This document shows positions 39,025 to 64,000 of a stretch of DNA of 64,000 bases, one piece after another. The notes under the pieces were generated by a model. That model saw nothing but the letters and a program-made list of their open reading frames with translations. It was not told the origin of the DNA and searched no databases. The DNA lies in assembly GCF_902833045.1 (NCBI RefSeq), contig NZ_CADFDU010000005.1:124583-188582 (forward strand). Direction: 5' to 3'. Each line of letters begins with the position of its first letter. The first letter of the stretch is position 1. Source of the stretch: Burkholderia sp. BCC0322 (GTDB lineage Bacteria > Pseudomonadota > Gammaproteobacteria > Burkholderiales > Burkholderiaceae). The position numbers and the translations under genes are program-made.

Positions 39025-39088
39025 GCGGCGGATCATACCATCCAGCCGGAATGTTTATATCGAGACGCCGGGTGCTACCATCCGCACC

Positions 39089-43043: not shown

Positions 43044-43227
43044 ACAGGGAACGGCGCGCCGTCGTTTCGCGTGAGCCGAACGCATCGGCACGCGAGGGTG
43101 GCGGCGCGTGGCCCGTCGAAGAAGGCGCGCGACGCAGCGCGACCAGACGCGTGCCGCGCAAACCGTGCCGGCTCGCCCGCGCTGGCGTTGCGCCACGTCC
43201 TCAAGCACGCACAACAAGGAGAATCAG

Positions 43228-45225: not shown

Positions 45226-45428
45226 GAAAGAATTCCTGATGAGACGTTGAAGCTGCGCTTGCGCGCATGGATGCCGACATGATTTAAACACCTGGCCGCA
45301 AACGCGTCTGTAACGGATTGCCGGGACAACCGCGGCATCGCCGGCCGCCGAATCCGGTCCGCCGCACGGCGGCTGTTCCGCCCGTCGGCGACAGGCAGCG
45401 TGCACGGTGTCCGCATCCGGATCGCCGC

Positions 45429-47132
45429 TCATCCGGCAGCTTCGGCCCGGGCATCGCACAGGGCCGTATCGGAGAAGATGCGGCCGCTATCCAGGCGAAT
45501 GACCCGATCCGCCAGCTTGAAATACTGATCGTCGTGGGTAATGATGACGACGCATTTCCCGCGGGACTTCAGATCGGGTACCAGCACTTCATAGAAAAAT
45601 CGCTTGAAGACCGGATCCTGATCGGCGGCCCATTCGTCCAGGATATAAATCGGACGATCCTCGATGTAGGCGCAAAGCAACGCCAGGCGCTTGCGTTGCC
45701 CGGTCGACAAGGCCCGGGTCGTCGAGTAAGTCCGGCCGGAAATCTCGATCTTGTCCGCCAATTTCAGGGTTTCAAGGTATTTCCGCGCAAGCTCGATGCG
45801 TTCATTGCCCCGGTCCGGTCCTATGACGCGATTGAACAAATGGAAATCGGTGAAGACGGCGGAAAACAGGTTTCGGTACCGTTCCCTGGCAGCGTCGTCA
45901 ATGACTCTTCCGTCGAGGGAGATGGTGCCGCCGGTAGGCGCATAGAGGCCGCTGAGCACCTTGCCCAACGTGCTCTTGCCGCTGCCGTTTCCGCCGATGA
46001 CATAGACGAGTTCGCCCGCATGAATCGTCATGTTGATGGGGCCGAGCACGAAGTCGACAGACGACGCGTCGTCACGGTAGTTCATCGTCACCTCGTTCAA
46101 CTCGATGACCTTCCATGACTTCGCCGATGGGGATTCCACGGTGCCCGGAGAGGGCGGTTCGTTGCGTGAATCCTGCGTGTCGTCGATCAGGAAGCCGAAT
46201 TCAGCCAGCCTGGCGAGCGCGGTCTTGCCTTCGGCCACCACCGGCAGGATATTGATCAGCATGGTCAAGGGCCCCATCATGTAGAGCACGGCCAGAATGC
46301 TCGCCGTGAGTACGGAAGGGTCCACGACGCCGAGCGACGGTACGCCGAACAACAGGAACCCGAGCAGGACCGCTACCGTGATCTGGCCGATGCTGTCGCC
46401 GCTCATGAACCAGAAGCGTTCGATGTAATTGAAGCCTGCCACGCGCTTCGACGACAACTCGATCGCGGCCCGGGTAAACCAGCGTCGCCTGGCCCGGTTG
46501 AGCTTGAGCTCCTTGATTCCGAACACGAGGCCATGGGTATATTCGTTGAACTGGACGAATTCATCGCGAACCCGCTCCGTGAAATTGACCGCCTTTCGAT
46601 AGAAAAACAGATAAAGCAGCAGGCCGACGAGGGTCAGGATGATCGTCGAAGCGAACACGATCCACGAGAGATAGGCGAGATAGGCGATGCTGCAGATCAG
46701 GACGACCGATTGAACGATGATCGTCGGGATGGTGAGCAGGGTCTGGCTCAGCTGCGGAATGTCTTGCGTCAGCATCGTCAGGACATTGGGGGCGCCGCGG
46801 CGGTCGATTTCATCCAGCGGGGTCGCCAGGATCCTCTTGCACAGGTTGACGCGCAATCGCGTCATGACTTTCATGCAGGCATAGGAAGGCATCACGGCAG
46901 CGCCGCTCCTGCAGACCACCGCGACGACATTCACCGCAATGAAGATCAGCAACAGCGTTTGCCGATCATCCCGGTCGTGCAGCGCGGTGCTGATCAACCC
47001 GACGCCCACGATCGACGCGATGCCGCTGACGAGGCCCGTCAGGACCGTGCCCAGCGTCAGCCAGGGATGACTGCGCCACATCAGGGTGACGGCGGAATGC
47101 CATGGCGGCGATTTGCTTTGAGCGGAATCCAT
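45429..47132 (-). CDS. ocfA: cyclic-peptide export ABC transporter (SyrD/PvdE type)
   Basis: 567 residues, a fused permease-ATPase. Six transmembrane helices (about residues 25-300) are followed by an ATPase with Walker A VIGGNGSGKSTLGK, signature LSTGQRKRL, Walker B PIYILDEWAADQDP and switch His ITHDDQYF. The layout matches cyclic-peptide/siderophore exporters such as SyrD and PvdE. It lies 16 bases downstream of the ocfB-like gene in the NRPS operon and would carry the finished lipopeptide across the inner membrane. The gene symbol follows the position and family in the published occidiofungin cluster. Confidence 0.9.
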   Translation of the reverse strand: MDSAQSKSPPWHSAVTLMWRSHPWLTLGTVLTGLVSGIASIVGVGLISTALHDRDDRQTLLLIFIAVNVVAVVCRSGAAVMPSYACMKVMTRLRVNLCKRILATPLDEIDRRGAPNVLTMLTQDIPQLSQTLLTIPTIIVQSVVLICSIAYLAYLSWIVFASTIILTLVGLLLYLFFYRKAVNFTERVRDEFVQFNEYTHGLVFGIKELKLNRARRRWFTRAAIELSSKRVAGFNYIERFWFMSGDSIGQITVAVLLGFLLFGVPSLGVVDPSVLTASILAVLYMMGPLTMLINILPVVAEGKTALARLAEFGFLIDDTQDSRNEPPSPGTVESPSAKSWKVIELNEVTMNYRDDASSVDFVLGPINMTIHAGELVYVIGGNGSGKSTLGKVLSGLYAPTGGTISLDGRVIDDAARERYRNLFSAVFTDFHLFNRVIGPDRGNERIELARKYLETLKLADKIEISGRTYSTTRALSTGQRKRLALLCAYIEDRPIYILDEWAADQDPVFKRFFYEVLVPDLKSRGKCVVIITHDDQYFKLADRVIRLDSGRIFSDTALCDARAEAAG

Positions 47133-47685: not shown

Positions 47686-48341
47686 TACCAGCCGTCCGGA
47701 ATGGGCATCGAATAGGTCAGCGGCTTTTCCGGCATCACTTCGTCCATGATGTCGGAGTAGCCGGACTCCTGTCCGACCAGGTTCGGCTCGAAGCAGTAGC
47801 AATTGAACGTCTGCTGCAGGACGAGGTTGTTACGGTCGTTGATCGCCGGCGGGTTTTCGTTGATCGCGATGAACGCGTCGTACAGCGAGTCCCGGACGAC
47901 ATACGCGTGTGCGGTGAGCGTCTCCACGGCCTTGACGATGTTCGGTGCGACGGGAATGGGCGGCGTGAAGTGATACGCGCCCAGGAACAGCATGTGCCAG
48001 TCATCCGGCACTTGCGCGATGAACTCGGGAAAGCGCGCGGCGAAATCGGCGTCGAAGAACGCGTCGTCCTCGAAGATCAGGACTTCGCTCGCGCCGGCAG
48101 CCTTGGCCTGTTTCACGGCGGCGAGATGGCTCATCGTGCAGCCGTAGTCCTGCGGACGCATATGGCTCAACGATTCCGGCACGCTCACCAGCCTGGCATC
48201 GACGGCGGACAGCCGTTCCACCGTGCGGATGTTCTGCTCTGCGAATTTTCGTTGCATCGCTTCCCAGCGGTCGGGGCGCCGGTCCAGGTTGATGCAGACC
48301 TTGCGGGCGAAAGTGTTGTCGATCGTCGGCGTTGATTTCAT
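47685..48341 (-). CDS. ocfC: family 25 glycosyltransferase (probable xylosyltransferase of the lipopeptide)
   Basis: 218 residues. It opens with CINLDRRPDRWEAMQRKF, the GT25 N-terminal block, then GCTMSHLAAVKQAKAAGASE and the nucleotide-sugar/metal motif VLIFEDDAFFD. There is no signal or membrane segment, so it is cytoplasmic. Its ATG overlaps the NRPS stop (ATGA at 48338-48341), indicating coupled translation with the NRPS. In the occidiofungin cluster as I remember it, the gene in this place (ocfC) adds xylose to the fatty amino acid residue. Most GT25 members act on lipopolysaccharide, so the peptide role rests on context. Confidence 0.88.
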   Translation of the reverse strand: MKSTPTIDNTFARKVCINLDRRPDRWEAMQRKFAEQNIRTVERLSAVDARLVSVPESLSHMRPQDYGCTMSHLAAVKQAKAAGASEVLIFEDDAFFDADFAARFPEFIAQVPDDWHMLFLGAYHFTPPIPVAPNIVKAVETLTAHAYVVRDSLYDAFIAINENPPAINDRNNLVLQQTFNCYCFEPNLVGQESGYSDIMDEVMPEKPLTYSMPIPDGW

Positions 48342-51300
48342 GAGGGCAGTTTTTCCAGAAACGAATTGACATGGGCGGCGAGGACGCCGGCATGCGGATC
48401 GAGCAGCATGGTCAGGTGGTCGCCGGGGACGTCCGTCACCGCGACGGGGAGCGCCGAGAAGCGGGACCACCCCCAGCTCGGGTCCAGGCGAAGCTGCGCG
48501 ATCTCGGCAGACGGCGCGTAGTCGCCGGGATCGCGTTCGGTGCTGCGGAACAGCGCGATCGGCACGGGCAGCGGGGTGGCTTGCGGCGCGTAGTGCGACT
48601 TGAAGTTGGCCTGGTAGACGCGCAGGTAGGCGCGCAGGCGGTCGGACCCGGCGTCCGCGAACCAGTTGCCGCGGTCGCCGATCCGCTCGAGGATCAGGCC
48701 GGCCTGGGCGTCGGGATCGAGATCGACGAGGTCGGTTCGCGTCACCTGAAGGTCGGTCCCGAGGAAGGTGCCGATTTCATGGGCGATCGCGACCAGCCAT
48801 TCGGTGTCGTCCCAGTCCTGCCAGTAAGCGGCGGCCGGGCTGTCGATGGGCGCGGACGCGTCGAAGATCGCCAGCAGTTTCACGTCGGCGCCCCTGGCGA
48901 CAAGTTGCCGGCTCATCTCGAGCGCCACCTGCGCGCCGAACGAGTGGCCCGCCAGGTAGTACGGCCCCGCGCCCACCCGCGGCCAGATGCGTTCGATATG
49001 ACGGGCCGCGATGTCTTCCACGCGGGTGAGCGGCATGCACGAGCCGTCGAGGCCGAGCGCTTCCAGCCCGTGAATCGCGTGGGCGCCGCTCAGGTGGTGC
49101 GCGAGCGGGTGGAAGTAGACCACGTTCCCGCCGGCGCCCGGCAGGAGGAAGAGCGGCGCGGCGGGGCCGCCGTCGCGAATCGGCACGAGTCCGCCGGCGG
49201 GCGCGGACGGTTCCTTCGCGGCCAGCGCCGCCGCCAGTTTCTCGATGGTCGGATTCTCGAACAGGCAGGAAATCGGCAGCCGGCGATCGAACGCCTTCTC
49301 GACATGGGCCATCAGCTGGATCGCGATGATCGAGTGGCCGCCGAGGTCGAAATAGTTGTCGCCGATCTTGATGTCGTCTCGTTTGAAGATCCGCCGCCAG
49401 ATCTCCAGCAACGTGCTTTCGTCCGCCGTAGGCGCGGCGGCGCGTGCCGCCGTGGCCGCCCCGGCAGCGGCTTCGATGGCCGGCTCGGCCGCGCCGCGCG
49501 ATGCGCTCGGCAGGCCACCGGCGGCCTGCGGATCGGCGAGCTCGCCGGTGCGCCGGGTCGGGTCGTCGGCGAATCGTTCCAGCAACGTGCGGAGGGTGCC
49601 GAGCATCTGCCGCACGACATCCGGCGCGACGCGGTGTGCATCGTGCGAAATGTGGAAACCGATGCGCTCGTTCGGGTGCACCGTCAGGGTCAGCGGGTAA
49701 TTCGATTCCGCGAACGCGCGGGTGTCGAGAATCTCGATGTCGTCCGGCCCGAGATCGGGGGCGGCGGCCACCGGGAAGTTCTCGAAGACGAGCAGGCTGT
49801 CGAACAGACTGTCGCGGGCGGGCACGTCGCTCCACGACTGGATATCGACCAGCGAGCTGTACGAATGCGGCTCCATTGCCGTCTGGGCCGCATGGACTTC
49901 CGCCAGCCATTCGATGAACGGCCGCTCCGGTGCGATACGCAAGCGCAGCGGCAGCGTGTTGATGAACAGCCCCACGATCGACTCGACGCCGTCGAGCATC
50001 GGCGGGCGACCGGACACGGTGACGCCGAAGACGACATCGTCCGTTCCGGCGTGGCGCCGCAGCACCAACGCCCAGACCGCGCGGATCAGGACGTTGAGCG
50101 TGACGCGATGCGCGCGCGTCAGCGCTTGCAGCCGCGCGGTCAGGGTCTCGTCCAGCAGGAATTGCTGTGTCCTGCGCGTGTCCTCGCGCGCGGCGTCGCC
50201 GGCGTTCTGCCGGGCCGGACTGGCCGCGATCGGCGTGGCGGCATGGAAGCCGGCCAGTTCGGCGCGCCACCAGGTTTCGTCGGCCGAGCGAGGATGACGC
50301 GCGAGCCAGTCGATGTACGCGCGGTAGCCCGGCGCCGACGCTGCGACCGCGGGCACGCCGGTGCGGGCGAGCGACAGGTAGTCGTCGAACACCTCCTTCA
50401 TCAGGGTCGCGGTGCTCCAGCCGTCCAAGATGATGTGGTGCGCGCTCCAGCAGAAGCGATGGCGCGTGTCCGTTTCCTGGATCAGCGTGCAGCGGAACAA
50501 CGGCGCCCGCTGAAGATCGAAGCCGCGCTTGCGGTCGTCGGCGAGGAACGCATCGAAGTCCTGCGCGCGGCGGGACGTATCGCGGTGCCGCCAGTCGAGC
50601 ATTGTCCACGGCAGCTCGACCGCGCGTAGCACGGTCTGGACGGGGTGATCGCGATTGGCCCACGCGAACGCGGTGCGCAGCACGCCATGGCGCGCGAGCG
50701 CATTGGCCCACGCCTGCCGGAGCGCCGGCACCTGGAGCGGGCCGCTGACGACAAAGCTGAACTGCTGGAAATAGGCGGCAGGATCCAGGTCGTACAGCGA
50801 ATGGAACAGGATGCCCTGCTGCAGCGACGAAAGTGGGTAGCTGTCCTCGATGTCGTCCCACGCGGTGTCGGGGACCGACGCCGCGAAGTCGAGCAACCGG
50901 TCCTTGAAGTGCGCGGCCAGGTTCTCGACCGTCTGCCGCCGGTGGAGCCGTTCGCCGTAGCGCCAGTCCACCTGAAGCTTGCCGTCGACGACGGCGGCGA
51001 CGATCTCGAATGCGTGCGTGCGCTGTGACCGCCCGGCGCGCAGCGAGCCGAGATCTTCGGCCGCCGGGCGCCAGCCGTCGGATTGCCGCAACACGGTATC
51101 GAGCTGCCCGTGATAGTTGAAGAGGATATCGGCCTTCGGCAACGCGGCGAGACTGTCGCGCACGGCGGCGTCGGGGCTCAGGTAGCGGAGCAGCGAATAA
51201 CCGAGACCGTCGGCCGGAATCCGGCGCAGCTGCTGCCGCGCGTCACGCAGCGCGTCCTCCGGCGTGTGCATCGCGTCGGCGTCGAGCACGACGGGGTAGA

Positions 51301-54300
51301 TGGACGTGAACCAGCCCACCGTCCGCGTGAGGTCGAGCGGCGCATCCGACACGTGGCGGCCGTGACTCTCGAGATCGATCCGGGTGCGGGTGTTGCCCGT
51401 GACCATGCTGCAGGCTTGCGCGAGCGCGACGAGCAGGACGTCGTTGATGCGGGTGTCGTAGGCCCGTGGCAGCCGGCGCAGCAACGCGGTGGTGGCGGCT
51501 TCGTCCAGCTCGAATGAAACGGATGACGCGTCGCCGACCGCGTTGTTGGCCCTGTAGTTGGCGCCGTGGTTGTCCGCACCCGCGGCCGGATAGTCGACCG
51601 GAATCGGTTCGACGTGCTGCGCAAGGAGGGCTTGCCACAGTCGGGCTTCGTCGCCGATGGCGGGCGACCGGGCCAGTTGCTGCAGATGCAATGCCCATTC
51701 GCGGAACGAAGTCGTCTTCTCGGGCAGCGGCCGGCCATGGTAGGCGGCATGCAAGTCCTCGAGGAGCACGCGCCACGACACGCCGTCCACCGCCAGGTGA
51801 TGGACCGACACGAACAGGCGGGCGAGCGGCTCGTCGGCCAGGCAGAAGAGCCGGGCCGCGAGCAACGGGCCGTGCGTGATGTCGATGCCGCGCTCCGCGT
51901 CGGCGGCGGCGGTGCGCATCGCCGCCAGGCGCTCGTCGGGGTCGCCGGCGATCACCTGTTTCGCAAAGAGCGCCGGCATCTCGCCGCCCGCGACGACTTG
52001 CTGGGTCCATCCGCCCGCACCGTGCGAGAAACGCAGTCGCAACGCGTCGTGATGTTCGTAGACTTGCCGGAACGCGTCGGCGAGCCTCGACGCGTCGATA
52101 TCCGCCGGCACCTGGATCAGGACCGTTTGATTGTAGTGTGACGGCGCATCGATCTCCTGTTCGAAGAACCAGTGCTGCACCGGTGTGAGCGGCGCATCGC
52201 CCAGCGGGCTCACGGTTGGCGCGTGTGCGGCCCGCGCCTCGGGTGCGGCGGCCAGCTGCGCGATCGTCTGATACTGGAACAGCTGCTTCGCCGTCACGCG
52301 CAGCCCGGCCTGGTTGGCGCGCGCGATCACCTGGATGCTCAGGATGGAGTCGCCGCCGAGTTCGAAGAAATTGTCGTGGATGCCGACGGAAGGCAGTTGC
52401 AGCACGTCTTGCCAGATCGACGCCAGCAGGATTTCCCGCGGCGTGACCGCGGGCGCGTGCGGCGGGGGCGCGTCGGCCCCATTCGCCGGAAGCGGCAGCG
52501 CCTTGCGGTTGATCTTGCCGTTGGGCAGCGTCGGCAGGGACGCGAGCGCGACGAACTGCGACGGCACCATGTAGTCGGCCAGCTTGCCGCTCAGGAAGCC
52601 GCGCAGATCGGCGAGGTCCGCCGCCGCGGTCGCGACATAGGCGATCAGGAAGGTTCGGGTTCCTTCGGTTCTCGCGATCACGACGCAGTCGTCGATCGAC
52701 GGATGCGCGCGCAGCGCCGCCTCGATTTCGCCGGGTTCGATGCGCAGGCCGCGCAGCTTGATCTGGTGATCGATGCGGCCGAGGAACGCGATGTTGCCGT
52801 CGGGGCGGTAGCGCGCGAGATCGCCGGTGCGGTAGAGGCGCGCGAGCGGGTCGGAGGAGAACGGATCGGCGATGAACTTTTCGGCGCTCAGTTCGGGTTC
52901 GCCGTGGTAGCCGCGCCCGACCGGCGTGCCGCCGATCAGCAATTCTCCGGGCACGCCCACCGGCACGGGCTGCATCTGCGCGTCGACGATGTAGAGGCGG
53001 GTGTTGGCGATGGGCCGGCCGATCGGGACGATGCGGTTCGGGTCGTCGCGCCGGCATTCCCACGCGGTTACGTCGACGGCGGCCTCGGTGGGGCCGTAGA
53101 GGTTGTAGAGCTTGACGTCCAGGCGCTCGAGGCAACGCTGCTGCAGGTCGTGGGGCAGCGCCTCGCCGCTGCACACGACGCGCCGCAGCGACGCGCAGTG
53201 CGCGTCGAGGTCCGGATGGTCGAGGAACGCGCGCAGCATCGACGGCACGAAGTGGATCGTGGTGATCCGTTCGCGCTCGATGAGATCGACGAGGTAGTCG
53301 GTTTCGCGCTGGCCGCCGGGGCGGGCGAACACCAGGCGCGCGCCGGTGACGAGCGGCCAGAAGAGTTCCCAGACCGAGACGTCGAAGCTGAACGGGGTCT
53401 TCTGCAGCACGGCATCGTCGGTGCCGAGCGCGTAGGCGTGCTGCATCCAGAGGATGCGGTTGGTGATGGCGCGATGGGTGTTGAGCGCGCCCTTGGGCCG
53501 GCCGGTCGACCCGGACGTGTAGATCATGTAGGCGAGGTTGTCGCCGTTCAGCGCGGGCGCGGGGTTCGACACGGGCGCGGCATCAAGATCGAGTGCGTCG
53601 GTATCGATGGCGATCACGCGGGCGCCGGTGTCGGGCAGCGCGGCGAGCAGGTGCTGCTGGGTGAGGAGCCAGCGCAACTGCGCGTGGTCGATCATGAAGC
53701 GCACGCGTTCGGCGGGGTAGTCGGGGTCGACGGGGACATAAGCGCCGCCGGCCTTGAGGATCGCGAGCAGCGCGACGCTCATGTCGAGCGAGCGTTCCAT
53801 GGCGACGCCGACGAGTGCGTCGGGGCCGACGCCGAGTGCGATGAGATGGTGGGCGAGGCGGTTGGCGCGCAGGTTGAGTTCGGCGTAGGTGAGCGAGACG
53901 TCATCGAAGACGGCGGCGATGGCGTCCGGCGTGCGCTCGACCTGCCGTTCGAACAACCGATGCAACGGCTGCGCGGCGGCCTCGCCGAAGTCCATGTCGG
54001 TGCGGTTCCACTCGACGGTCAGCAAGTGCCGCTCCGCATCGCTCGTCAACGGCAGCGCGCCGAACGGCCGGTCCGGATCGGCGATCACGGCATCGATGAG
54101 CGTACGGAAGTGTTCCGCCATGCGCTCGATCGTGGCGGCGTCGAACAGGTCCAGGTTGTATTCCAGCGAGCCCGCGAGACCGTCGTCGGCATCCTGGACA
54201 TGGAGCGTGAGGTCGAATTTCGCGGTGTGGGTCTCCACCGATACCGGCGTGGCCACGAGACCGGGGAAGCTCGCCGTCTGGGCCTGCGCTTTCTCGTACG

Positions 54301-57300
54301 CGAACACGACCTGGAAAACCGGCGTGCGGCTCAGGTTGCGTTCGAGTTCGAGCGCGTCCACCACCTGCTCGAACGGAATCTCCTGTCGGCTGTAGCCGTC
54401 CAGCGCGACGCGCTTCACGCGCGCGAGCAGTTCGCCGAAGGTCGGATTGCCCGACAGGTCCACGCGCAGCGCGAGCATGTTCGCGAAGAAGCCGATCAGC
54501 GGCTCGGTCATGCTGGAACGCCGATTGGCGATCGGGGAGCCGATGACGAGATCCTGCTGGTTGCTGTATCGCGACAGCAGCAGCGCATACGCGGCGAGCA
54601 CGACCATGAACGTGCTGGTGCCGGACGCGCGCGCAATCGCGCGCAGCCCGTCGGCGCGTGCGCCGCTCAACCGGAACGGTAGGACCGCGCCGCGGAACTG
54701 CTGGACGGCGGGCCGGGGGCGGTCGGTGGGCAGTTCGATCAGGTCCGGCGCGTCCGCCAGCGCGGCGCTCAGCAGCGCCAGTTCCCGATGCGTGTCGGCG
54801 GACGCCAGGCGCTCGTGCTGCCACACCGCGTAGTCCGCGTACTGGACGGCCAGTTCCGGCAGCGGCCGGCCGGCATAGAGCGCGGCCAGTTCGCCGATGA
54901 GGATGCCTGACGACCACGCATCGGAAACGATGTGATGCATCACGATGCCGAAGACGTGCAGGCGTTCATGGACGCGGTACAGCACGACGCGATAGAGCGG
55001 CCCGGCGGCGAGATCGAACGGGCGGTCGGCTTGCGCCGCGAGCAGCGCGAGCGTGTCGGATTCGTCGGCGACGTCGACGACGTCGAGCGCGACCGGCGCC
55101 GGCGGTGCGATGCGTTGAACCCCGCGGCCGTCGACGGCGGGAAACGTCGTGCGCAGGATCTCGTGACGCCGGCTGATCTCGGACACGGCATCCCGCAGGC
55201 GCGCGATGTCCAGTTCGCCGTCGAAGCGCAGCGCGCTCGCGATATTGTAGGTGGCCGACGGGCCTTCCAGTTGCGCGAGGAACCACAGCCGCTGCTGCGG
55301 AAACGACAGCGGCAGGTCGTTCGCGCGCGAGCGGGGCAGGATGTGGCCGGCCGTCGAACCGGCGCGGGGCGACGACGCTTCGATCAGGTCGGACACCGCG
55401 CTGATGGTCTGGAGTTCGAAGATCGCGTCGATGCCGATCTCGACGGCGAAGCTGCTCCAGATCCGCGAAACCAGCTGCATGGCCTGCAGCGAATCGCCGC
55501 CGTAGTCGAAGAAGCGGCCGGTGAGATCGACGGCCGGATTGTCGAGCACGTCGCGCCAGATGCGCACCAGCTCGAGCTGGATCGGCGTGGCGTCGAGACG
55601 GGCGGCGTCGGGCGCGGCGGCAGGCTCCAGGGCCAGGAGCGCCGGGCGATCCAGCTTGCCGTTCGCGTTGAGCGGGAATTCGGCGATCGGGACGATGTCG
55701 GACGGGACCATGTAGTCCGGCAGCTTCGCGGCCAGATAGGCCCGAAGGTCCGGCACGTTCAGGCTCGCGGCGCCCTTGACATAGGCCGCCAGCTTGCGCA
55801 CCCCGTGGGCGGATTCGCGCACCATGACCGCCGCGCCGACGACATCCTCGTGCGCGGCGATCGCGGCCTCGATCTCGCCGAGTTCGATACGGTGCCCGCG
55901 GATCTTGACCTGGTGGTCGACGCGTCCGTAGCACTGGATACGTCCGTCGGGCAGCCACCGGCCGATGTCGCCGGTGCGATAGATGCGCGCTTCGCCGGGA
56001 AACGGATGCTCGACAAATTTAGAGGCGGTGACGTCGGGCCGCTGGTGGTAGCCGCGCGCTAGGCCGGCGCCGGCGAGGCAGATTTCCCCGGGCACGCCGA
56101 GCGGAACCGGCCGCAGCGCGTCGTCGAGCATGTACACCCGGGTGTTGGCGATGGGACGGCCGATCAGCACCGTGGACGGCGCGTCCTCGACGCGCTCGAC
56201 GATGCAGCCGACCGTCGCCTCGGTGGGGCCGTACTCGTTGTAGATTTCGATCGCGGGATCGATCTTGCGCAGCGTGGCGATGTGCTGGGGCGTCAGCTCC
56301 TCGCCGCCGACGATGACCTTGCGCACGCCGGAGCGTGGCAGGTTCATGTATTCCAGCAGGTGAATGTGGGTGGGCGTGAGCTTGACGGTGTCGACGCCGC
56401 TGCCGGGCTGGAACATCCGGGCCAGGATGGTGTCGATGCTTTCCGACTGCGGATAGATGCGCAGCGTCTTGCCGCGCACCAGCGGGCAGAAGATGTTGGT
56501 GAGCGTGAAATCGAAGCACAGCGAGCTGTACAGGCCGAAACTGCCGGTCGTGCCGTCCGGAAAGTAATACCCGACGGCCCACGCGATGTAGTGGGCCAGG
56601 TTCCGGTGTTCGAGCAGGCAGCCCTTGGGTTTCCCGGTCGAGCCGGACGTGTAGAGCACGTAGGCCAGGTGCGCCGGTTCGGCACGGCAAGGCGGGTTGT
56701 CCGGCAGCGGCGTCCAGCCGGGGAGTGCCTGGTCCAGCAGCAGCGTCGCGCCGGAGAATTCATACCACTGCGCGAGCTGGCTCGATTGGGTCACCAGCAG
56801 CGACAGGCCGGTGTCGCCGAGGATGTGATTGATCCGTTCGGCCGGATATGCCGGGTCCAGCGGAACGAACGCCGCCCCCGCCTTCAATATGCCGAGAATC
56901 GCGACGATCATCCATTCGGAACGGTCGAGCATGATGCCGACCAGCGATTCCGGCCCGACGCCGTGGTGTTCGCGCAATTGATGCGCGAGGCTGTTGGCGC
57001 GGGCGTTCAGATCGGCGTAGGTCATCAGCGAACTGTCGGTGACCAGGGCCGGCGCCGCCGGCGTGCGGGCGACCTGCGCTTCGAACATGTCGACGACCGT
57101 CGGGTGGCTGGGGCCGACCGTCGCGGTTGCGTTGAAGGCGGCCAGCAGCGGGCGCTCTTCCGGCGGGGCCGCTTCGATGTCGCCGACCAGTGTGTCGAGG
57201 TGTTCGAAGGCCTCCAGCACCACGCCCAGGCTGCCGGCGAAACCGTCGATGACGAAAGGCTCGATGGCCCCGCTATAGCGGAGCGCGATTTCACCGCGCG

Positions 57301-57853
57301 CGAGCCGCAGATGCAACTGCAGGTCGTCGTCCCGGCTGGCCGGTGCGTGGTGCACCCGATCGTCCGCCAGCGCGACTTTCGTGAGCTGCGCGAGATCCAT
57401 GTCCTTTTCGTTGCGCACGAGCGTTTCGAGCGGGAATTGAGGCTCGGCGTAGCTGTCTTCCACGATCGCCGCCACGCGCGACAGGTAGTCCTCGATGCGC
57501 TCGTCGGGACGGACCTCGATGATCAGCGGAACGGTGGCCGCCTGAGCCGGCGGATGCTCGGCCAGCCCCGGCGTGCCGAGCACCGTGACCGGCATCCGGA
57601 AGTATTTCCAGAGCAGGAACGCAATGCCCGCCGCCGTGACCGCGAATTCGGCAAGCTCGCCGTCGCCGATGCGCCGCAGCAGGTCGAGCGACGCGGGCGT
57701 GAGCCGCACCGAGCGGGACAGCCGGTCCGGCTGTCGACTCGGGGCGTGCGGCGCGATCCGGTAGACGCCGGCGACCTGGGAAAGGCTGTCGCGCCAGAAC
57801 TGCGCGATGTGCGCATAGCGATGGTCGGTGACCAGCACGTTATTGTTTTGCAC
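48338..57853 (-). CDS. ocfD: NRPS: partial C - A(Asn) - PCP - C - A(Ser) - PCP - E - C - PCP - TE
   Basis: 3171 residues, GTG start with AAGGAG 6 bases upstream. Domains by residue: decapitated condensation remnant (10-235, no HHxxxDG); A1 (255-735); PCP (Ser788); C (847-1280, HHIVSDAWS); A2 (1297-1780); PCP (Ser1836); epimerase (1887-2320, HHLAVDGVSW); C of the D-donor type (2335-2770, HHIILDGWS); PCP (Ser2841); thioesterase (2898-3168, GHSFG with Ser2971, His3146). Pocket residues read by eye: A1 D-F-T-K-I-G-E-V-G, near the Asn code DLTKLGEVG; A2 D-V-W-H-V-S-L-V-D, a Ser code. So it adds Asn, then Ser made D, then one more residue whose module has no A domain, and cyclises. This matches OcfD of the occidiofungin pathway. 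Confidence 0.92.
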   Translation of the reverse strand: MQNNNVLVTDHRYAHIAQFWRDSLSQVAGVYRIAPHAPSRQPDRLSRSVRLTPASLDLLRRIGDGELAEFAVTAAGIAFLLWKYFRMPVTVLGTPGLAEHPPAQAATVPLIIEVRPDERIEDYLSRVAAIVEDSYAEPQFPLETLVRNEKDMDLAQLTKVALADDRVHHAPASRDDDLQLHLRLARGEIALRYSGAIEPFVIDGFAGSLGVVLEAFEHLDTLVGDIEAAPPEERPLLAAFNATATVGPSHPTVVDMFEAQVARTPAAPALVTDSSLMTYADLNARANSLAHQLREHHGVGPESLVGIMLDRSEWMIVAILGILKAGAAFVPLDPAYPAERINHILGDTGLSLLVTQSSQLAQWYEFSGATLLLDQALPGWTPLPDNPPCRAEPAHLAYVLYTSGSTGKPKGCLLEHRNLAHYIAWAVGYYFPDGTTGSFGLYSSLCFDFTLTNIFCPLVRGKTLRIYPQSESIDTILARMFQPGSGVDTVKLTPTHIHLLEYMNLPRSGVRKVIVGGEELTPQHIATLRKIDPAIEIYNEYGPTEATVGCIVERVEDAPSTVLIGRPIANTRVYMLDDALRPVPLGVPGEICLAGAGLARGYHQRPDVTASKFVEHPFPGEARIYRTGDIGRWLPDGRIQCYGRVDHQVKIRGHRIELGEIEAAIAAHEDVVGAAVMVRESAHGVRKLAAYVKGAASLNVPDLRAYLAAKLPDYMVPSDIVPIAEFPLNANGKLDRPALLALEPAAAPDAARLDATPIQLELVRIWRDVLDNPAVDLTGRFFDYGGDSLQAMQLVSRIWSSFAVEIGIDAIFELQTISAVSDLIEASSPRAGSTAGHILPRSRANDLPLSFPQQRLWFLAQLEGPSATYNIASALRFDGELDIARLRDAVSEISRRHEILRTTFPAVDGRGVQRIAPPAPVALDVVDVADESDTLALLAAQADRPFDLAAGPLYRVVLYRVHERLHVFGIVMHHIVSDAWSSGILIGELAALYAGRPLPELAVQYADYAVWQHERLASADTHRELALLSAALADAPDLIELPTDRPRPAVQQFRGAVLPFRLSGARADGLRAIARASGTSTFMVVLAAYALLLSRYSNQQDLVIGSPIANRRSSMTEPLIGFFANMLALRVDLSGNPTFGELLARVKRVALDGYSRQEIPFEQVVDALELERNLSRTPVFQVVFAYEKAQAQTASFPGLVATPVSVETHTAKFDLTLHVQDADDGLAGSLEYNLDLFDAATIERMAEHFRTLIDAVIADPDRPFGALPLTSDAERHLLTVEWNRTDMDFGEAAAQPLHRLFERQVERTPDAIAAVFDDVSLTYAELNLRANRLAHHLIALGVGPDALVGVAMERSLDMSVALLAILKAGGAYVPVDPDYPAERVRFMIDHAQLRWLLTQQHLLAALPDTGARVIAIDTDALDLDAAPVSNPAPALNGDNLAYMIYTSGSTGRPKGALNTHRAITNRILWMQHAYALGTDDAVLQKTPFSFDVSVWELFWPLVTGARLVFARPGGQRETDYLVDLIERERITTIHFVPSMLRAFLDHPDLDAHCASLRRVVCSGEALPHDLQQRCLERLDVKLYNLYGPTEAAVDVTAWECRRDDPNRIVPIGRPIANTRLYIVDAQMQPVPVGVPGELLIGGTPVGRGYHGEPELSAEKFIADPFSSDPLARLYRTGDLARYRPDGNIAFLGRIDHQIKLRGLRIEPGEIEAALRAHPSIDDCVVIARTEGTRTFLIAYVATAAADLADLRGFLSGKLADYMVPSQFVALASLPTLPNGKINRKALPLPANGADAPPPHAPAVTPREILLASIWQDVLQLPSVGIHDNFFELGGDSILSIQVIARANQAGLRVTAKQLFQYQTIAQLAAAPEARAAHAPTVSPLGDAPLTPVQHWFFEQEIDAPSHYNQTVLIQVPADIDASRLADAFRQVYEHHDALRLRFSHGAGGWTQQVVAGGEMPALFAKQVIAGDPDERLAAMRTAAADAERGIDITHGPLLAARLFCLADEPLARLFVSVHHLAVDGVSWRVLLEDLHAAYHGRPLPEKTTSFREWALHLQQLARSPAIGDEARLWQALLAQHVEPIPVDYPAAGADNHGANYRANNAVGDASSVSFELDEAATTALLRRLPRAYDTRINDVLLVALAQACSMVTGNTRTRIDLESHGRHVSDAPLDLTRTVGWFTSIYPVVLDADAMHTPEDALRDARQQLRRIPADGLGYSLLRYLSPDAAVRDSLAALPKADILFNYHGQLDTVLRQSDGWRPAAEDLGSLRAGRSQRTHAFEIVAAVVDGKLQVDWRYGERLHRRQTVENLAAHFKDRLLDFAASVPDTAWDDIEDSYPLSSLQQGILFHSLYDLDPAAYFQQFSFVVSGPLQVPALRQAWANALARHGVLRTAFAWANRDHPVQTVLRAVELPWTMLDWRHRDTSRRAQDFDAFLADDRKRGFDLQRAPLFRCTLIQETDTRHRFCWSAHHIILDGWSTATLMKEVFDDYLSLARTGVPAVAASAPGYRAYIDWLARHPRSADETWWRAELAGFHAATPIAASPARQNAGDAAREDTRRTQQFLLDETLTARLQALTRAHRVTLNVLIRAVWALVLRRHAGTDDVVFGVTVSGRPPMLDGVESIVGLFINTLPLRLRIAPERPFIEWLAEVHAAQTAMEPHSYSSLVDIQSWSDVPARDSLFDSLLVFENFPVAAAPDLGPDDIEILDTRAFAESNYPLTLTVHPNERIGFHISHDAHRVAPDVVRQMLGTLRTLLERFADDPTRRTGELADPQAAGGLPSASRGAAEPAIEAAAGAATAARAAAPTADESTLLEIWRRIFKRDDIKIGDNYFDLGGHSIIAIQLMAHVEKAFDRRLPISCLFENPTIEKLAAALAAKEPSAPAGGLVPIRDGGPAAPLFLLPGAGGNVVYFHPLAHHLSGAHAIHGLEALGLDGSCMPLTRVEDIAARHIERIWPRVGAGPYYLAGHSFGAQVALEMSRQLVARGADVKLLAIFDASAPIDSPAAAYWQDWDDTEWLVAIAHEIGTFLGTDLQVTRTDLVDLDPDAQAGLILERIGDRGNWFADAGSDRLRAYLRVYQANFKSHYAPQATPLPVPIALFRSTERDPGDYAPSAEIAQLRLDPSWGWSRFSALPVAVTDVPGDHLTMLLDPHAGVLAAHVNSFLEKLPS

Positions 57854-57919: not shown

Positions 57920-60900
57920 TCACGTCTTCTCCTCGAGCGCGCCGTCGGCCGTGACCTCGGGCGCGCGCTTCAGGCGCAGGCCGACCCGGACCCGCGGGCC
58001 GGCGGCGGGCGCATCGCCGGAGAGCGGGATGCGATCGACCGGCGTGGCCGGATCGCGGCGGAAGACGTCGTGGATCGCGAGCAGTCGATCGCGCATCGCG
58101 GCGATGGTCGACGGGCGGAACAGGTGGGTGTTGTAGATGAACTGGATCAGGTGCCGGCCTTCGCTTTCCACGACCTGGAAGGACAGGTCGAACTTGGCCG
58201 TCGTGTCCGCCTGCGAGAGGTCCGTGATGCGGAGGCCGGGCCGCGGCGCCGGCATCGACACGGAGTTCGCTTGAATGTCGAAGATCGGAAAATGGCCCGC
58301 CGGGGTGCGAATCTTCAGGTCCTCCAGCAACACGTCGAACGGATAGGACGCATGCGCCAGCGCGTCCGCGGAGGCTTTCGCCACGCCGTCGATCACCTCC
58401 GCGACGGTCGCGGATTTCCGCACCGGGACGCGCAGCACGACGGTGTTCAGATACACGCCGATCTGCGATTCGAGCTGCTCGCTGTCGCGCCCGGCCGACA
58501 CGCTGCCGATGACGATGTCCTCACGCCCCGTATAGCAGTGCATCAGCACGCAGAACGACGCGAGGAGCACCGCATGGAGCGACGTATGGTGAGCGCGCGC
58601 CAGCGTCGCGAGTCCCGCCGCCTGCGGCTCCGGTAGCTCGACTTCGAGCGTCTGCCCGGCATGACCGGGCCGCTCGGGACGCGGGAAGTCCGACGCCAGT
58701 TGCAGGCGGGGCAGCGGCGCCGCCAGTTGTCCGAGCCAGTACGCGCGATGCGCGGCGGCGCGCGGACCGGCGAGGCTCGCGTTGTGCCATGCGGCGTAGT
58801 CGCGATACTGGATCGACAGCGGCGGCAGGTCGCGTCCCGCATACAGCGCATGCAGGTCGTCGGTCAGCACGCGGATCGACCATGCATCCGATATCACGTG
58901 GTGCATGTTCAGCAGTAGCAGATGCTTCGCGGGCGAGAGCCGAACCAGCTTGACGCGAAAGAGCGGCCCCGTCGCGAGATCGAACGGCTGCGCGCTTTCC
59001 GCGCGAATCAGCGCATCGATCGCCTGCGGCCCGGCGTCGTCCGCGAGATCCTGCTGCTCGACCCGGAAACCGGAGGCTTCGCGGGTGAGGATGCGTTGCC
59101 GCAACTCGCCTTCGATCATCGCAAACACGGTGCGCAGGCTCTCGTGGCGATCGACCAGCAAGTCGAACGCACGAACGAGGCGCGCGGTGTCGACGGCGCC
59201 GTCCAGTTGCAGCGCGCCTGCCATGTTGTACGTGGATGGATCCGCGCTGCGGCTGGCGAGCCAGATCCGCTTCTGGGCGCGAGACACCGCGTAGGACGGT
59301 TGCACGGCCAGCGCCGGGATGAGCGCGTCGGCGTCGTCGGCGGCGGTGCCGTCGGCAGGCAGCGAAGCCAGCTTCCGCGCGAGCGCGCGCGGCGTCGGCG
59401 CATGGAAGATGTCGGCGACCGCGACGTCCAGTTTCAGTTCGCGCCGGATCCGGCTGACCATCTGGATCGCCTTGAGGCTTTGGCCGCCATGCTCGAAGAA
59501 ATCGTCGTCGACGCCGTTCGGCCGGCGGCCCAGCACCTCGGCGAAGATACGCAGCAGCGCCGCTTCGACCGGCGTCCGCGGTTCGGCCGCCACGCCGTCG
59601 GGCACGGACGCGGCCTCCGGGAGCGGCAGCGCGGCGCGGTTGATCTTGCCGTTCGGCATGACCGGTAGCGCCGGCAGCAGCATCACGGTGTCGGGCACCA
59701 TATGCGCGGGCAACTGTTCGCGCAGGGCGTCGCGCAGCCGTTGGGGCGTCCAGCCGGACCCCGACGCATAGCCGCACAGGGTCATGCCCGCATCCGGCGT
59801 CTCGCGGGCGACCACGACGGCGTGGGAGATGCCGGCGAGACCGGTCAGCGCGGCTTCGATTTCGCCGAGCTCGATGCGATATCCGCGGATCTTGACCTGG
59901 AAGTCGCGGCGGCCGAAGAAGTGGAGATTGCCGTCCGCCCCGAAGCAGCCGATATCGCCGGTGCGATACAGGCGCGCGCCCGGTTCCGGGCTGAACGGAT
60001 CGTCGCGGAACACCGCCAGGGTGCGGGCTTCGTCGAACAGGTAGCCGCGCCCGACGCCGACGCCCCCGATGCAGATCTCGCCCTTGACGCCGGCCGGGCA
60101 CGGATTCATGTCGGCGTCCACGACGTAGACGCGCAGGTTCTCGATCGGCCGGCCGATCGGAATCGCCGGCAGATCCGGGGCGCGCGTCATGCTGTAATGC
60201 GCGACGGAATCCGACGCTTCGGTCGGCCCATAGGCGTTGATGAGCCGGACCGCCGGATTCAGGCGGAACCAGGCTTGTACGGACGCGGGCTGCAGCGTTT
60301 CGCCGATCGTCAGCAGCGTTTCTAGGTGCGGGAAGGCCGGTGCCGCGTGCCGTTCCAGTTCGTCGAGAAAGGTCGCCAGATAGGACGGCACGAATTGCAT
60401 CGCCGTGATGCGGTCGCGGTGCAGGCTGTCGATCAGGCGCGCGGGCTCGAGAATCACGGCATCGGGATAGATCACCGTTGTGCCGCCCGACGCCAGCGCC
60501 GCGAAGCACTGCCAGACCGAAATGTCGGAGCAGTGCGAAGCGGTCTGGGCGACCGCGCTCCGCGCGCCGAGCCCGACCCTGCGCGCCATCGCGAGCACGT
60601 GATTGAGCATGCCGCGATGTTCGACCATCGCGCCTTTCGGCTGGCCGGTCGAACCCGACGTGAAGATCACGTAGGCGAGGTCCGCGGGCCGGCAGCGCGG
60701 CGTCGGCGCTTCGGCATCCTGATGGGCGGGCAGGCGAACGGGATCGACCCGCGGGATCGACGCAAGCGCCGGCGGCGGCTGGCAGTCCGTGCCGACGATG
60801 ACGGCCGGCCGGGCCAGCGTCAGCAGGGTCTCGACCCGCTGGGCCGGATAGGCCGGATCGACCGGCACATACGCCGCACCGCACTTCCAGATGGCCAGGA

Positions 60901-63900
60901 TCGTTTCCAGCATCAGCGGCGAGCGCGGCATCCACACGGCGATCCGGTCGTCCGGCTGGAGCGGCGCCGTCCGCAGCAGATGCGCGGCGATCCGGCCGGC
61001 GCCTTCGACGAGCTCCCGATAGGTGCGCACCTCCGTGCCGCAGCGGACGGCGATGCGTTCCGGGTGCGCGGCGGCGACGGCCTCGATCAGTTCGGGCAGC
61101 GTCCGGTCGAGCGGAACCGGCGCGAACGTGTCGTTGCCGCCGTGCAGGATGGCGTCCCGCTCGGCGGCGGTGAGCAGCGCAAGGCTGCGGTTCGGGCGAT
61201 CCGCCGCGCCGGCCAGGCCGGTGAGCAGGGTCTCGACATGGCGCAGCAGGCGGACGATCGTTTCGCGATCGAACCGGCCGTCGTCGTACAGCACCTGCAG
61301 CGACAGGCGCTTGCCCGGCGTCACGACCAGCGTCAGCGGGTAATTGTTCGGATCGGACACCTGGAATGCGCCGATCCGCAGGCCGGGCAGCGCCTCGGCC
61401 AGCGCTTCCTCGACCGGATAGTTCTGGAAGATGAGCAGGCTTTCGAAGAGCGGCACGCCGGGCGGCAGGCCGGCGAATGTCTGGATGTCGGCCAGCGGAT
61501 AGTGCGCATAGTCCTCCTGCTGCGCGAGGTCCATCTGCAATTGCGCGAGCCACGCGGACGTCGGGCGCGCGTCGATGCGCACCCGCACCGGCAGCGTGTT
61601 GATGAACAGCCCGACCATTTCGTCCGACGCCGGCAGCGATGCCGGCCGGCCGGACACGATCGTGCCGAACACGACGTCCGGTTCGCCGCTATAGCGGCTC
61701 AGCAACTGCGCCCACGCGCCCTGCGCGAGCGTGTTCAGGGTGAGGCGGCTGGATTGCGCGAAGGCGACGAGCCGTTGCGTGTCGCTTTCGGAGAGCAGCA
61801 GCGGCTCTTCCACGTAGGCGCCCGGCGCGGCCGTGCCGTCGAGTTCGGGGCGGCCCAGCACGAGCGGCGTCGTCGCCGGGAAATCCGCCAGCTTCGTCTT
61901 CCAGAAACGTTCCGCCGCGGCGGCGTCCTGGCGCGCCAGCCAGCGCACGTAATCGGCGAAGGCGGGCGGCGCGTCCCGCTCCGGCGTGGCTTCGGCCGGC
62001 GGCGTCTGATAGGCGGCGGCCACTTCGCTCAGGAGCCGCGCGGAGCTCCACCCGTCGAGCAGGATGTGGTGATGGCTCCAATGGAAGCGCCATGCGTGAT
62101 CGCCCACGCGGAACAGTGCGAGCCGCATCAGCGGGGCGCGGGTAAAGTCGAAGCCGCGCGCCCGGTCTTGCGCCACGTAGGCTTCCCAGCGTTGTTCGGC
62201 CTCCGCGGCGGACGCCGCGCGCAGATCCTCGTCGTGCCACGGCAAGTCGATGCGGCGATGCACGACCTGCACGGGGCTTTCGATGTCTTCCCAGTGAAAC
62301 GAGGTTCGCAGGATGTCGTGCCGGTGCGCCACGGTATCCCACGCGCGGCGGAACCGTTCGGTGTCGAGCGCCCCGTCGATCGTGAAATTCAGGCTGCTGA
62401 AGTACGCATCCGACGCGGGTTCGTACAGGCTGTGGAACAGCATGCCCTGCTGGGTCGGCGTAAGCGCATAGACGTCGGCGATCTCGTCCGGCAGCACCGA
62501 GGCCGGCGCCTGCGGCAAGCCGGTCGCGGGCCGGGACGACGCGGACTCCACGGCGTGCCCGGCGACCAGGGTGTCGAGCGCCGCGATGAAGGCCTGCGCG
62601 ACGCGCCGGATGGTGTCCGTGTCGTGGCAGGCCCGGCTGAACTCCCACGCAACGTGCAGGCGGTTGCCGGTCACGTAGGCGTTGACGTCGAGCAGGTGCT
62701 CGCGCCGCTGGTTCGCATGGCGGCCATCGCCGCTTGGCTCCGCGGCCTGTTTCCAGTCGCGTGCAGCGGTGAACAGCTGGTCGGTCTGGCCCAGGTAGTT
62801 GAACAGCAGTCGCGGCTGCGGAGCCGGGCCGTCGAGCCGGTCCTGCAGCAGGCCGTAGCTGATGCCCGCGCGCGGCACGGCGCGCAGTCGCTTCTTGACC
62901 GACGCAATCAGGCGCGCCGGATCCTGCGAGCCGGCATCGACGGTCAGCACGACCGGGAAAACCGACGTAAACCAGCCCACCGTGCGCGAGATGTCGAGGT
63001 CGTCGATCAGTTCCTCGCGCCCATGCGCTTCGAGATCCAGCAGGACGTCGGCGCAGCCGCTCCAGTCGCTGACGGCACGCGCAAGCGCGGCGAGCAGCAG
63101 GTCGTTGACCTGCGCGTCATGGGCGCGGGGCGCGGCGCCCAGCAAGGCCGTCGTGGCGGCTTCGCCCAGCTCGACCACGATCGTTTCGGCGGACGACACG
63201 GTATTGGCGTCGGCGGGCGCATCGCGATCGAGCGGCAGGCCGGGCAGCGCGGCACGCGCGAGGGCCTGCCAATGGGCGATGTCGGCGTCGGCGGCGCCGG
63301 AGCCGGCCCAGTTCGAGATCGCCCGGGTCCATGCGGTCCAGGTCGCGCTGCCGCCCGCGAATTCGGGCGCCTTGCCGTTGCGCAGGCGCGTATAGGCGTC
63401 GTACACGGTTTCGAGCAGCGCGCCCCACGACACGCCGTCGACCACGAGATGATGGGCGACCAGCAGCAGGCGGAGCGAACGGCCTTCGTCGAGGCGAAAC
63501 AGGTCCGCGCGCACGACGGGGCCGTCCGCGAGATTCAGGCTCGCATGCGACTGCGCGACGTGCTGCGCGAGCTGATCGCGCGCAAGGTCGGACACGACGA
63601 CGGGCACTTCCGGATCGTCGACGACTGCCTGGATCCAGCCGGCTGCGCCCGCGCGAAAACGCAGCCGCAGCGCGTCATGCCATTTGGCCGCGTGCCGCAG
63701 CGCCTGGCGCAGCACGACCGGATCGAAATCGGCCGGCACGTCGAGCAGGATCGCCTGGTTGTACTGGTCCGGGTCGTCCTTGCGCTGCGCGAAGAAACGC
63801 TTCTGGATGGGCGTGAGCGGCAGCGGGCCGGACGACGCGACGAACTCGGCCGCGCCGACCGTGCCGCGCGTCGCCACGGCGGCGAGTTCGGCAACCGTCG

Positions 63901-64000
63901 GATGCTGGAAGATGAGCCGGGTGGTGATCTTCAGGCCCGCCTTCGCGGCCAGCGACACGATGCGCATGCTGAGAATCGAGTCGCCGCCCAGCGCGAAGAG
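57920..64000 (-). CDS. ocfE: NRPS, 5' part outside the window: ...PCP - E - C - A - PCP - C
   Basis: 2026 residues are visible; the gene enters from the right edge inside a PCP (LFALGGDSILSM, phosphopantetheine Ser codon 63977-63979). Counting from the Met at 63967: epimerase (47-480, HHLVVDGVSW), C of the D-donor type (497-925, HHHILLDGWS), A (955-1450), PCP (GGQSLKAI, Ser1497), C (1558-1990, HHVISDAWS), then stop. Ending on a C domain means the growing chain is joined to the residue carried by the first PCP of the next protein. Pocket residues of the A domain read D-I-W-Q-L-I-A-D-S, which matches no code I know well. In occidiofungin this position is Gly6. It lies 66 bases upstream of the next NRPS gene. 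Confidence 0.9.
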   Translation of the reverse strand, partial: LFALGGDSILSMRIVSLAAKAGLKITTRLIFQHPTVAELAAVATRGTVGAAEFVASSGPLPLTPIQKRFFAQRKDDPDQYNQAILLDVPADFDPVVLRQALRHAAKWHDALRLRFRAGAAGWIQAVVDDPEVPVVVSDLARDQLAQHVAQSHASLNLADGPVVRADLFRLDEGRSLRLLLVAHHLVVDGVSWGALLETVYDAYTRLRNGKAPEFAGGSATWTAWTRAISNWAGSGAADADIAHWQALARAALPGLPLDRDAPADANTVSSAETIVVELGEAATTALLGAAPRAHDAQVNDLLLAALARAVSDWSGCADVLLDLEAHGREELIDDLDISRTVGWFTSVFPVVLTVDAGSQDPARLIASVKKRLRAVPRAGISYGLLQDRLDGPAPQPRLLFNYLGQTDQLFTAARDWKQAAEPSGDGRHANQRREHLLDVNAYVTGNRLHVAWEFSRACHDTDTIRRVAQAFIAALDTLVAGHAVESASSRPATGLPQAPASVLPDEIADVYALTPTQQGMLFHSLYEPASDAYFSSLNFTIDGALDTERFRRAWDTVAHRHDILRTSFHWEDIESPVQVVHRRIDLPWHDEDLRAASAAEAEQRWEAYVAQDRARGFDFTRAPLMRLALFRVGDHAWRFHWSHHHILLDGWSSARLLSEVAAAYQTPPAEATPERDAPPAFADYVRWLARQDAAAAERFWKTKLADFPATTPLVLGRPELDGTAAPGAYVEEPLLLSESDTQRLVAFAQSSRLTLNTLAQGAWAQLLSRYSGEPDVVFGTIVSGRPASLPASDEMVGLFINTLPVRVRIDARPTSAWLAQLQMDLAQQEDYAHYPLADIQTFAGLPPGVPLFESLLIFQNYPVEEALAEALPGLRIGAFQVSDPNNYPLTLVVTPGKRLSLQVLYDDGRFDRETIVRLLRHVETLLTGLAGAADRPNRSLALLTAAERDAILHGGNDTFAPVPLDRTLPELIEAVAAAHPERIAVRCGTEVRTYRELVEGAGRIAAHLLRTAPLQPDDRIAVWMPRSPLMLETILAIWKCGAAYVPVDPAYPAQRVETLLTLARPAVIVGTDCQPPPALASIPRVDPVRLPAHQDAEAPTPRCRPADLAYVIFTSGSTGQPKGAMVEHRGMLNHVLAMARRVGLGARSAVAQTASHCSDISVWQCFAALASGGTTVIYPDAVILEPARLIDSLHRDRITAMQFVPSYLATFLDELERHAAPAFPHLETLLTIGETLQPASVQAWFRLNPAVRLINAYGPTEASDSVAHYSMTRAPDLPAIPIGRPIENLRVYVVDADMNPCPAGVKGEICIGGVGVGRGYLFDEARTLAVFRDDPFSPEPGARLYRTGDIGCFGADGNLHFFGRRDFQVKIRGYRIELGEIEAALTGLAGISHAVVVARETPDAGMTLCGYASGSGWTPQRLRDALREQLPAHMVPDTVMLLPALPVMPNGKINRAALPLPEAASVPDGVAAEPRTPVEAALLRIFAEVLGRRPNGVDDDFFEHGGQSLKAIQMVSRIRRELKLDVAVADIFHAPTPRALARKLASLPADGTAADDADALIPALAVQPSYAVSRAQKRIWLASRSADPSTYNMAGALQLDGAVDTARLVRAFDLLVDRHESLRTVFAMIEGELRQRILTREASGFRVEQQDLADDAGPQAIDALIRAESAQPFDLATGPLFRVKLVRLSPAKHLLLLNMHHVISDAWSIRVLTDDLHALYAGRDLPPLSIQYRDYAAWHNASLAGPRAAAHRAYWLGQLAAPLPRLQLASDFPRPERPGHAGQTLEVELPEPQAAGLATLARAHHTSLHAVLLASFCVLMHCYTGREDIVIGSVSAGRDSEQLESQIGVYLNTVVLRVPVRKSATVAEVIDGVAKASADALAHASYPFDVLLEDLKIRTPAGHFPIFDIQANSVSMPAPRPGLRITDLSQADTTAKFDLSFQVVESEGRHLIQFIYNTHLFRPSTIAAMRDRLLAIHDVFRRDPATPVDRIPLSGDAPAAGPRVRVGLRLKRAPEVTADGALEEKT

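Follow-up and report, generated by a model that had tools for sequence, protein, structure and literature searches.

The window analysed here, a 64,000-nucleotide stretch of Burkholderia sp. BCC0322, carries ocfA to ocfD and part of ocfE of an occidiofungin/burkholdine-type gene cluster. The nonribosomal peptide synthetase (NRPS) OcfD encoded there ends in a module of condensation (C), peptidyl carrier (PCP) and thioesterase (TE) domains that has no adenylation (A) domain. We propose, with moderate confidence, that this terminal module is functional in both elongation and release and relies on an A domain borrowed from another module. On balance, the A1 domain of OcfD would load both its own carrier, for Asn7, and the terminal carrier, which our counts assign to Asn1. 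We go no further than this because products of the pathway show different errors at the two positions and because the two carriers are unlike each other.

The assignment of the cluster, already made in the sequence-only reading, holds. The window's ocfA to ocfD share gene sizes and order with the ocf and bks clusters of B. contaminans MS14 and B. ambifaria AMMD, as do the NRPS and polyketide synthase (PKS) genes in five relatives, and size and gene order of the OcfD homologue match ocfD in the MS14 table of PMC9494966. Domains of OcfD were located by a Pfam scan in ten pieces, at expect values (E) up to 10, and with profiles built from the window. Between the epimerase, which ends near residue 2330, and the TE, the piecewise scan finds Condensation (285 bits) and PP-binding (58 bits), then Thioesterase, with no match to AMP-binding even at E up to 10. 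Simple A3/A5/A7/A8 patterns lie only within the two real A domains of OcfD and none occurs after residue 1674, and a six-frame search of the whole window with a profile from its own three A domains returns only those three (E ≤ 1e-3). The C domain (residues 2338-2773) has HHIILDG at 2472, the PCP (2811-2879) carries Ser2841 in an LGGHSI motif, and the TE (2891-3170) has catalytic Ser2971 (GHSFG) and His3146 (GDH). All of these domains, and the absence of A3/A5/A8 motifs between epimerase and TE, had been claimed from the sequence alone, and Pfam, motif patterns and the window-wide A profile now agree: OcfD ends C-PCP-TE without an A domain and with its other catalytic residues intact.

The whole A-less stretch recurs in 14 of 65 Burkholderia genomes, with 829 or more of its 831 residues aligned and 83-93% identity, and a domain scan finds no A domain at the OcfD terminus in any of these 14. 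An end common to so many genomes of the genus is not a chance or sequencing accident. Mean identity to the window over the 14 rows is 0.89 for the terminal C domain, 0.90 for the terminal PCP and 0.90 for the TE, compared with 0.61 for the Ala/Pro-rich spacer between C and PCP; other OcfD domains range from 0.81 (half-C) to 0.95 (two other PCPs). This pattern argues that the terminal module is under selection and that the spacer is a loose linker. Two matches (L006 and L007) span 3525 bases instead of the usual ~2490, with no A domain there in the domain scan (L061, L059). In G064 the OcfD copy (L065) is spread over several reading frames, from a broken gene or a sequencing error. Among 369 genomes sampled across the class, 21 matched the terminal stretch (E ≤ 1e-60), some aligning through C into PCP-TE.

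The spacer spans residues 2774-2810 when bounded by the flanking profile matches, and 17 of its 37 residues are Ala and 4 are Pro. It had been suggested to mark the loss of an A domain, an idea that our results do not support. Its best A-profile score at maximum sensitivity over 15 rows was 0.8 bits (E 0.13), and no A-bearing version of the terminal module was found among the 14 relatives. Separately, G018 (L056:12483-18287, plus strand) and G053 (L057:12571-18813, plus strand) encode a different NRPS ending C-A-PCP-C-PCP-TE, a second and unrelated A-less terminal module, preceded by an A domain with code DFWSFGLVH, which we take to be Thr-like; by eye, a similar Ala-rich spacer is present in that end too.

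Domain counts place the A-less carrier in the product. Five clusters were read whole (G001, G003, G012, G034 and G065), and each has seven amino-acid PCPs and six amino-acid A domains, with carriers counted above 40 bits to the thiolation (T) profile and weaker OcfH matches excluded as acyl carrier proteins (ACPs) of the PKS. Each of the four whole clusters entered in a C-domain tree has seven C domains. The A codes, read at nine positions by motif anchors, are identical in all five clusters: DVWHVSLVD, DGMNIASVC, DIWELTADD, DIWQLIADS, DFTKIGEVG and DVWHVSLVD, which in product order are Ser3, Tyr4, 2,4-diaminobutyrate (Dab) 5, Gly6, Asn7 and Ser8. The Ser, Dab and Asn labels are code types that we presume, and the Tyr4 and Gly6 assignments rest on position and on the CmlA-type hydroxylase OcfG adjoining OcfF. 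Because the product holds seven amino acids beside the fatty one and the line has six A domains, Asn1 has a PCP without an A domain, which supports the earlier proposal that the terminal PCP is the Asn1 carrier. In the tree of 28 C and 8 epimerase domains from four clusters, the terminal C domain forms one group with the other two C domains located behind an epimerase (SH-aLRT 100). It is therefore predicted to act on a donor ending in a D-residue, which fits D-Ser8 in the product, although the D configuration at position 8 was itself assigned partly from a predicted epimerase (PMC10897925).

The case for A1 as shared loader is one of elimination. A1 has the code DFTKIGEVG in 15 of 15 rows and is the sole Asn-type A domain of the ocf line, and in 13 of the 14 ocf genomes no other was found, one unreadable fragment apart. 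Outside the ocf cluster, these 14 genomes gave 124 A-domain hits at E ≤ 1e-40, of which 123 had readable codes and a single one, in G063, equals the A1 code. The unreadable hit is a contig-end fragment in G006 that may itself be a piece of ocf. Leaving the G006 fragment out of account, A1 is thus probably the loader in 13 of the 14 genomes, and it is likely to fill this role in every one of them. For the sequence-only reading, which had named A1, this means that the Asn-type code stands, while loading by A1 is inferred by elimination.

Such sharing has precedents. The A domain of yersiniabactin HMWP2 serves several carriers, including HMWP1, one of them next to a terminal TE as we propose for OcfD; that system differs in having cyclisation domains and another substrate. 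Yersiniabactin is also named as iterative in PMC12400406. In capreomycin biosynthesis, CmnA-A1 was found to charge the A-less CmnI when tested in E. coli, and CmnI-T when tested in vitro (PMC12400406). As in that pathway, OcfD combines a carrier lacking its own A domain with another A domain in the line, A1, whose predicted specificity is the one required. CmnI, however, is separate and internal to its line, whereas the A-less module of OcfD is terminal, ends in a TE and lies in the same protein as A1.

Several observations weigh against A1 as the shared loader. In MS14 products, any of Asn, Asp, Gln and Glu can occupy position 7, but only Asn and beta-hydroxy-Asn occur at position 1 (PMC10897925). 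Peaks at position 7 were assigned there to Asn (66.4%), Asp (26.0%) and Gln (7.6%), NMR places Asp at position 7 and at no other, and Gln7 and Glu7 were seen only along with hydroxy-Asn1 (PMC10897925). One A domain for both sites should make the same errors at positions 1 and 7, unless a later filter acts on one of them; the terminal C domain, the hydroxylase or the TE are candidate filters for a clean position 1. The carriers themselves give no sign of a common partner. A resemblance between the terminal and Asn7 PCPs was looked for and not seen: at 26% their identity is the lowest of the row, with a middling alignment score, and the PCP tree is long-branched. The terminal PCP is also less conserved across genomes than the two other OcfD PCPs (0.90 compared with 0.95), and A1 shows no extra conservation (0.922, with 0.900-0.925 for other A domains).

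The unlike error patterns would fit two loaders, and a separate Asn-activating enzyme elsewhere in the genome, acting alone or with a shuttle, is an alternative that we consider unlikely. Its model would be syringomycin, where the ninth module of SyrE ends C-T-TE without an A domain and depends on SyrB1 and SyrC, the closest architectural parallel to OcfD (PMC8949500). SyrE relies on a dedicated A-T protein, and none with an Asn code appears in the 80 kb around each of the five whole clusters. An A profile run over those 80 kb found, besides the six A domains and OcfJ, four further matches, none read as Asn: G001:305143 (code DVENVGAIT), a 29-residue match at G034 472284, and two acyl-ligase-like matches in G034, at 528826 (62 bits, uncoded and not among the hits at E ≤ 1e-40) and 535970 (code TFGFVAGHI). 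Aminoacyl shuttles of the SyrC type use a Cys nucleophile, and OcfN, the one protein looked at in this respect, has Ser (GHSMG) in G001. The upstream part of the cluster, which lies beyond the window, was read in the five relatives, and ocfN, like ocfK, is present in all five of their clusters. One of the 14 genomes does have the kind of enzyme that the earlier reading had named as evidence against A1, a stand-alone A domain whose code is identical to that of A1, in a 527-residue frame in G063 (L152:9945-11516, minus strand). This domain lies outside the ocf cluster, next to its own PCP-methyltransferase and to genes for an aromatic amino acid lyase and a transporter, and none of the other 64 genus genomes has a relative of it at E ≤ 1e-90.

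That Asn1 is loaded with no A domain at all, for instance from aminoacyl-tRNA by a mechanism aided by OcfB, is highly improbable, and the specific form of this idea, in which OcfB binds the tRNA that charges the last Asn, is slightly more so. OcfB is hypothetical in print; we find it in 14 of 14 ocf genomes as a stand-alone homologue of the anticodon-binding domain (PF19269) of glutamyl-tRNA synthetase (GluRS). HHalign gives 95.3% over 79 columns against GltX, and in sequence and modelled fold OcfB matches the C-terminal helical domain of GluRS, with the fold match carried by residues 55-160 only and residues 1-60 forming a block of pLDDT ~49-65. Were the tRNA route true, it would establish a new principle, with the translation machinery supplying an NRPS carrier. 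However, OcfB-like genes and A-less ends occur apart, which argues against it. In G015, two OcfB-like genes adjoin a lipopeptide line whose NRPS PCPs, within the 100 kb read, all have an A domain (a lone carrier at the edge of the 100 kb is a PKS ACP), while G018 and G053 have their other A-less C-PCP-TE end with no second PF19269 match. Pfam shows no catalytic domain in OcfB, and as a loader it is weakened by all three genomes.

The two G015 genes (L090:14716-15180, minus strand; L088:8988-9458, plus strand) are distant relatives of OcfB and adjoin another lipopeptide NRPS cluster with fatty acyl-AMP ligase (FAAL), PKS and aminotransferase, with no A-less module in 100 kb. Beyond the genus, an OcfB search matched 67 of 398 genomes of a phylum sample, where all matches besides ocf (G001) were weak (E 2.7e-10 to 1e-3) and in frames of at least 468 residues, mostly GltX-sized. 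In an order sample it matched six of 399 (ocf of G001, four in frames of 472-491 residues and one of 1274), and in a family sample ten of 299, of which nine are ocf genomes and the tenth, G1238, matches weakly in a 1102-residue frame with a stop.

It is very improbable that the terminal PCP is charged by a different A domain of the line, Ser-type or otherwise, or by an ornibactin-type Asp A domain, and that amidation follows. The ornibactin-type code DLTKVGHVG is the next closest to that of A1, alike at 6 of 9 positions. The route needs an extra step for which no candidate appears among the ocf genes scanned, and the portions of the occidiofungin literature examined report no free-acid products at position 1.

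Least probable of all is the published order, stated in PMC10897925 and PMC9494966, in which OcfJ inserts Asn1 or hydroxy-Asn1 first and the terminal C-PCP-TE merely releases the chain, since domain content already contradicts it. OcfJ of G034 (L034:11387-15844, minus strand) consists of FAAL, ACP, ketosynthase (KS) and part of a dehydratase (DH), with no C domain. Its first 600 residues match NCBIfam fatty acyl-AMP ligases with up to 438 bits, none at its curated cut-off, compared with 159 bits for amino-acid adenylation, and the same weak, split A-profile match occurs at OcfJ in the four other clusters. OcfH of G001 has two KS, two acyltransferases, one ketoreductase, carriers and an aminotransferase, followed by C, A, PCP and C, a layout that reads as a start on a beta-amino fatty acid. 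Nothing in OcfH could join Asn ahead of the fatty amino acid NAA2, because its two C domains flank the Ser3 A domain, one ahead and one behind, and at the other end of the line the terminal C domain and PCP are intact and conserved. A review of FAAL enzymes lists occidiofungin as FAAL-started, as a hypothesis. The OcfJ and OcfH layouts together support a chain that runs from the fatty acid to Asn1, as the sequence-only reading had supposed, with a ring that would close from Asn1 onto the beta-amine. In print, Asn1 comes first on OcfJ or the peptide is predicted without a final Asn; here it would come last.

With A1 as shared loader, assembly may run as follows. The FAAL of OcfJ would activate the fatty chain, which would be extended and aminated on OcfJ, OcfI and OcfH and grown to NAA2-Ser3-Tyr4-Dab5-Gly6-Asn7-D-Ser8. 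OcfD A1 would charge two carriers, its own PCP and the terminal one, the latter either in trans or by reaching across the long protein, and the terminal C domain, of D-donor type, would join the D-Ser8 peptide to the terminal Asn. Part of Asn1 would be beta-hydroxylated, perhaps by OcfK, and the TE would cyclise the product through the beta-amine of the fatty amino acid. OcfK (L034:15978-16964, minus strand) belongs to the TauD family, and its first iron-binding motif is HCE, not HxG or HxA, in all five clusters. Halogenases of this family typically lack that carboxylate. Although called a halogenase in PMC10897925 and PMC9494966, OcfK is a candidate Asn1 hydroxylase, a role that its motif fits better than chlorination of Tyr4.

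Positions of these and the remaining features are collected in the table. The half-C of OcfD is homologous to the N-terminal lobe of OcfF (HHalign 97.3%); the relation to C domains is clear for OcfF (94.5%) and weak for OcfD (30.7%). Each half-C stands ahead of an A domain for a residue type that occurs beta-hydroxylated in the product. A docking function is as likely, however, because OcfD and OcfF each also come after a protein ending in a C domain. The A domain of the OcfE homologue in the window has the code DIWQLIADS, read as Gly6 from its position. Beside the ocf cluster lie genes for a cholesterol-oxidase-like FAD protein (39871-41799, minus strand) and a squalene-hopene cyclase (36982-39036, minus strand).

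Table. Features of the ocf region in the window (coordinates in the window, domains of OcfD listed from its C-terminus).
Feature	Position	Strand	Remarks
OcfD homologue, 3171 aa	48338..57853	-	half-C, A1, PCP, C, A2, PCP, epimerase, C, PCP, TE
Thioesterase of OcfD	48344..49183	-	GHSFG and GDH intact; putative release/cyclisation
Terminal PCP of OcfD, Ser2841	49217..49423	-	no A domain of its own; Asn1 carrier supported by counts
Ala/Pro-rich spacer	49424..49534	-	length and sequence vary between species
Terminal C domain of OcfD, HHIILDG	49535..50842	-	groups with other post-epimerase C domains
Epimerase domain of OcfD	50864..52201	-	D-Ser8
PCP of Ser8 module, OcfD	52235..52438	-	
A2 of OcfD, code DVWHVSLVD (Ser type)	52499..53968	-	Ser8
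C domain preceding Ser8, OcfD	54035..55321	-	
PCP of Asn7 module, OcfD	55376..55570	-	
A1 of OcfD, code DFTKIGEVG (Asn type)	55640..57103	-	proposed loader of own and terminal PCP
N-terminal orphan C-lobe of OcfD, aa 1-245	57119..57853	-	half-C without HHxxxDG; Pfam Condensation E 0.089 only
OcfE homologue, C-terminal part	57920..64000	-	PCP fragment, epimerase, C, A, PCP, C; runs past window end
OcfC homologue, glycosyltransferase family 25	47688..48470	-	ORF overlaps ocfD end; true start further in
OcfB homologue, 160 aa	47149..47631	-	stand-alone GluRS anticodon-binding-domain homologue
OcfA homologue, ABC transporter	45429..47132	-	
Two LuxR-type (GerE) regulator ORFs	43108-44049, 44326-45459	+, -	place of ambR1/ambR2 (names from PMC9494966)

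That A-less modules can be served by another A domain was known already; what our analysis adds is a corrected sequence of assembly for occidiofungin, an antifungal being investigated as a drug lead, and a loader that can be tested directly. If Asn1 is in fact added last, by the loader that also serves Asn7, then both ends of the published assembly order are incorrect, and beta-hydroxy-Asn and ring closure would have their origin at the OcfD terminus. The presence of OcfB raises the question of what role a tRNA-synthetase anticodon domain has in a lipopeptide cluster. OcfD would offer a clean test case, with one A domain, two carriers and different error patterns.
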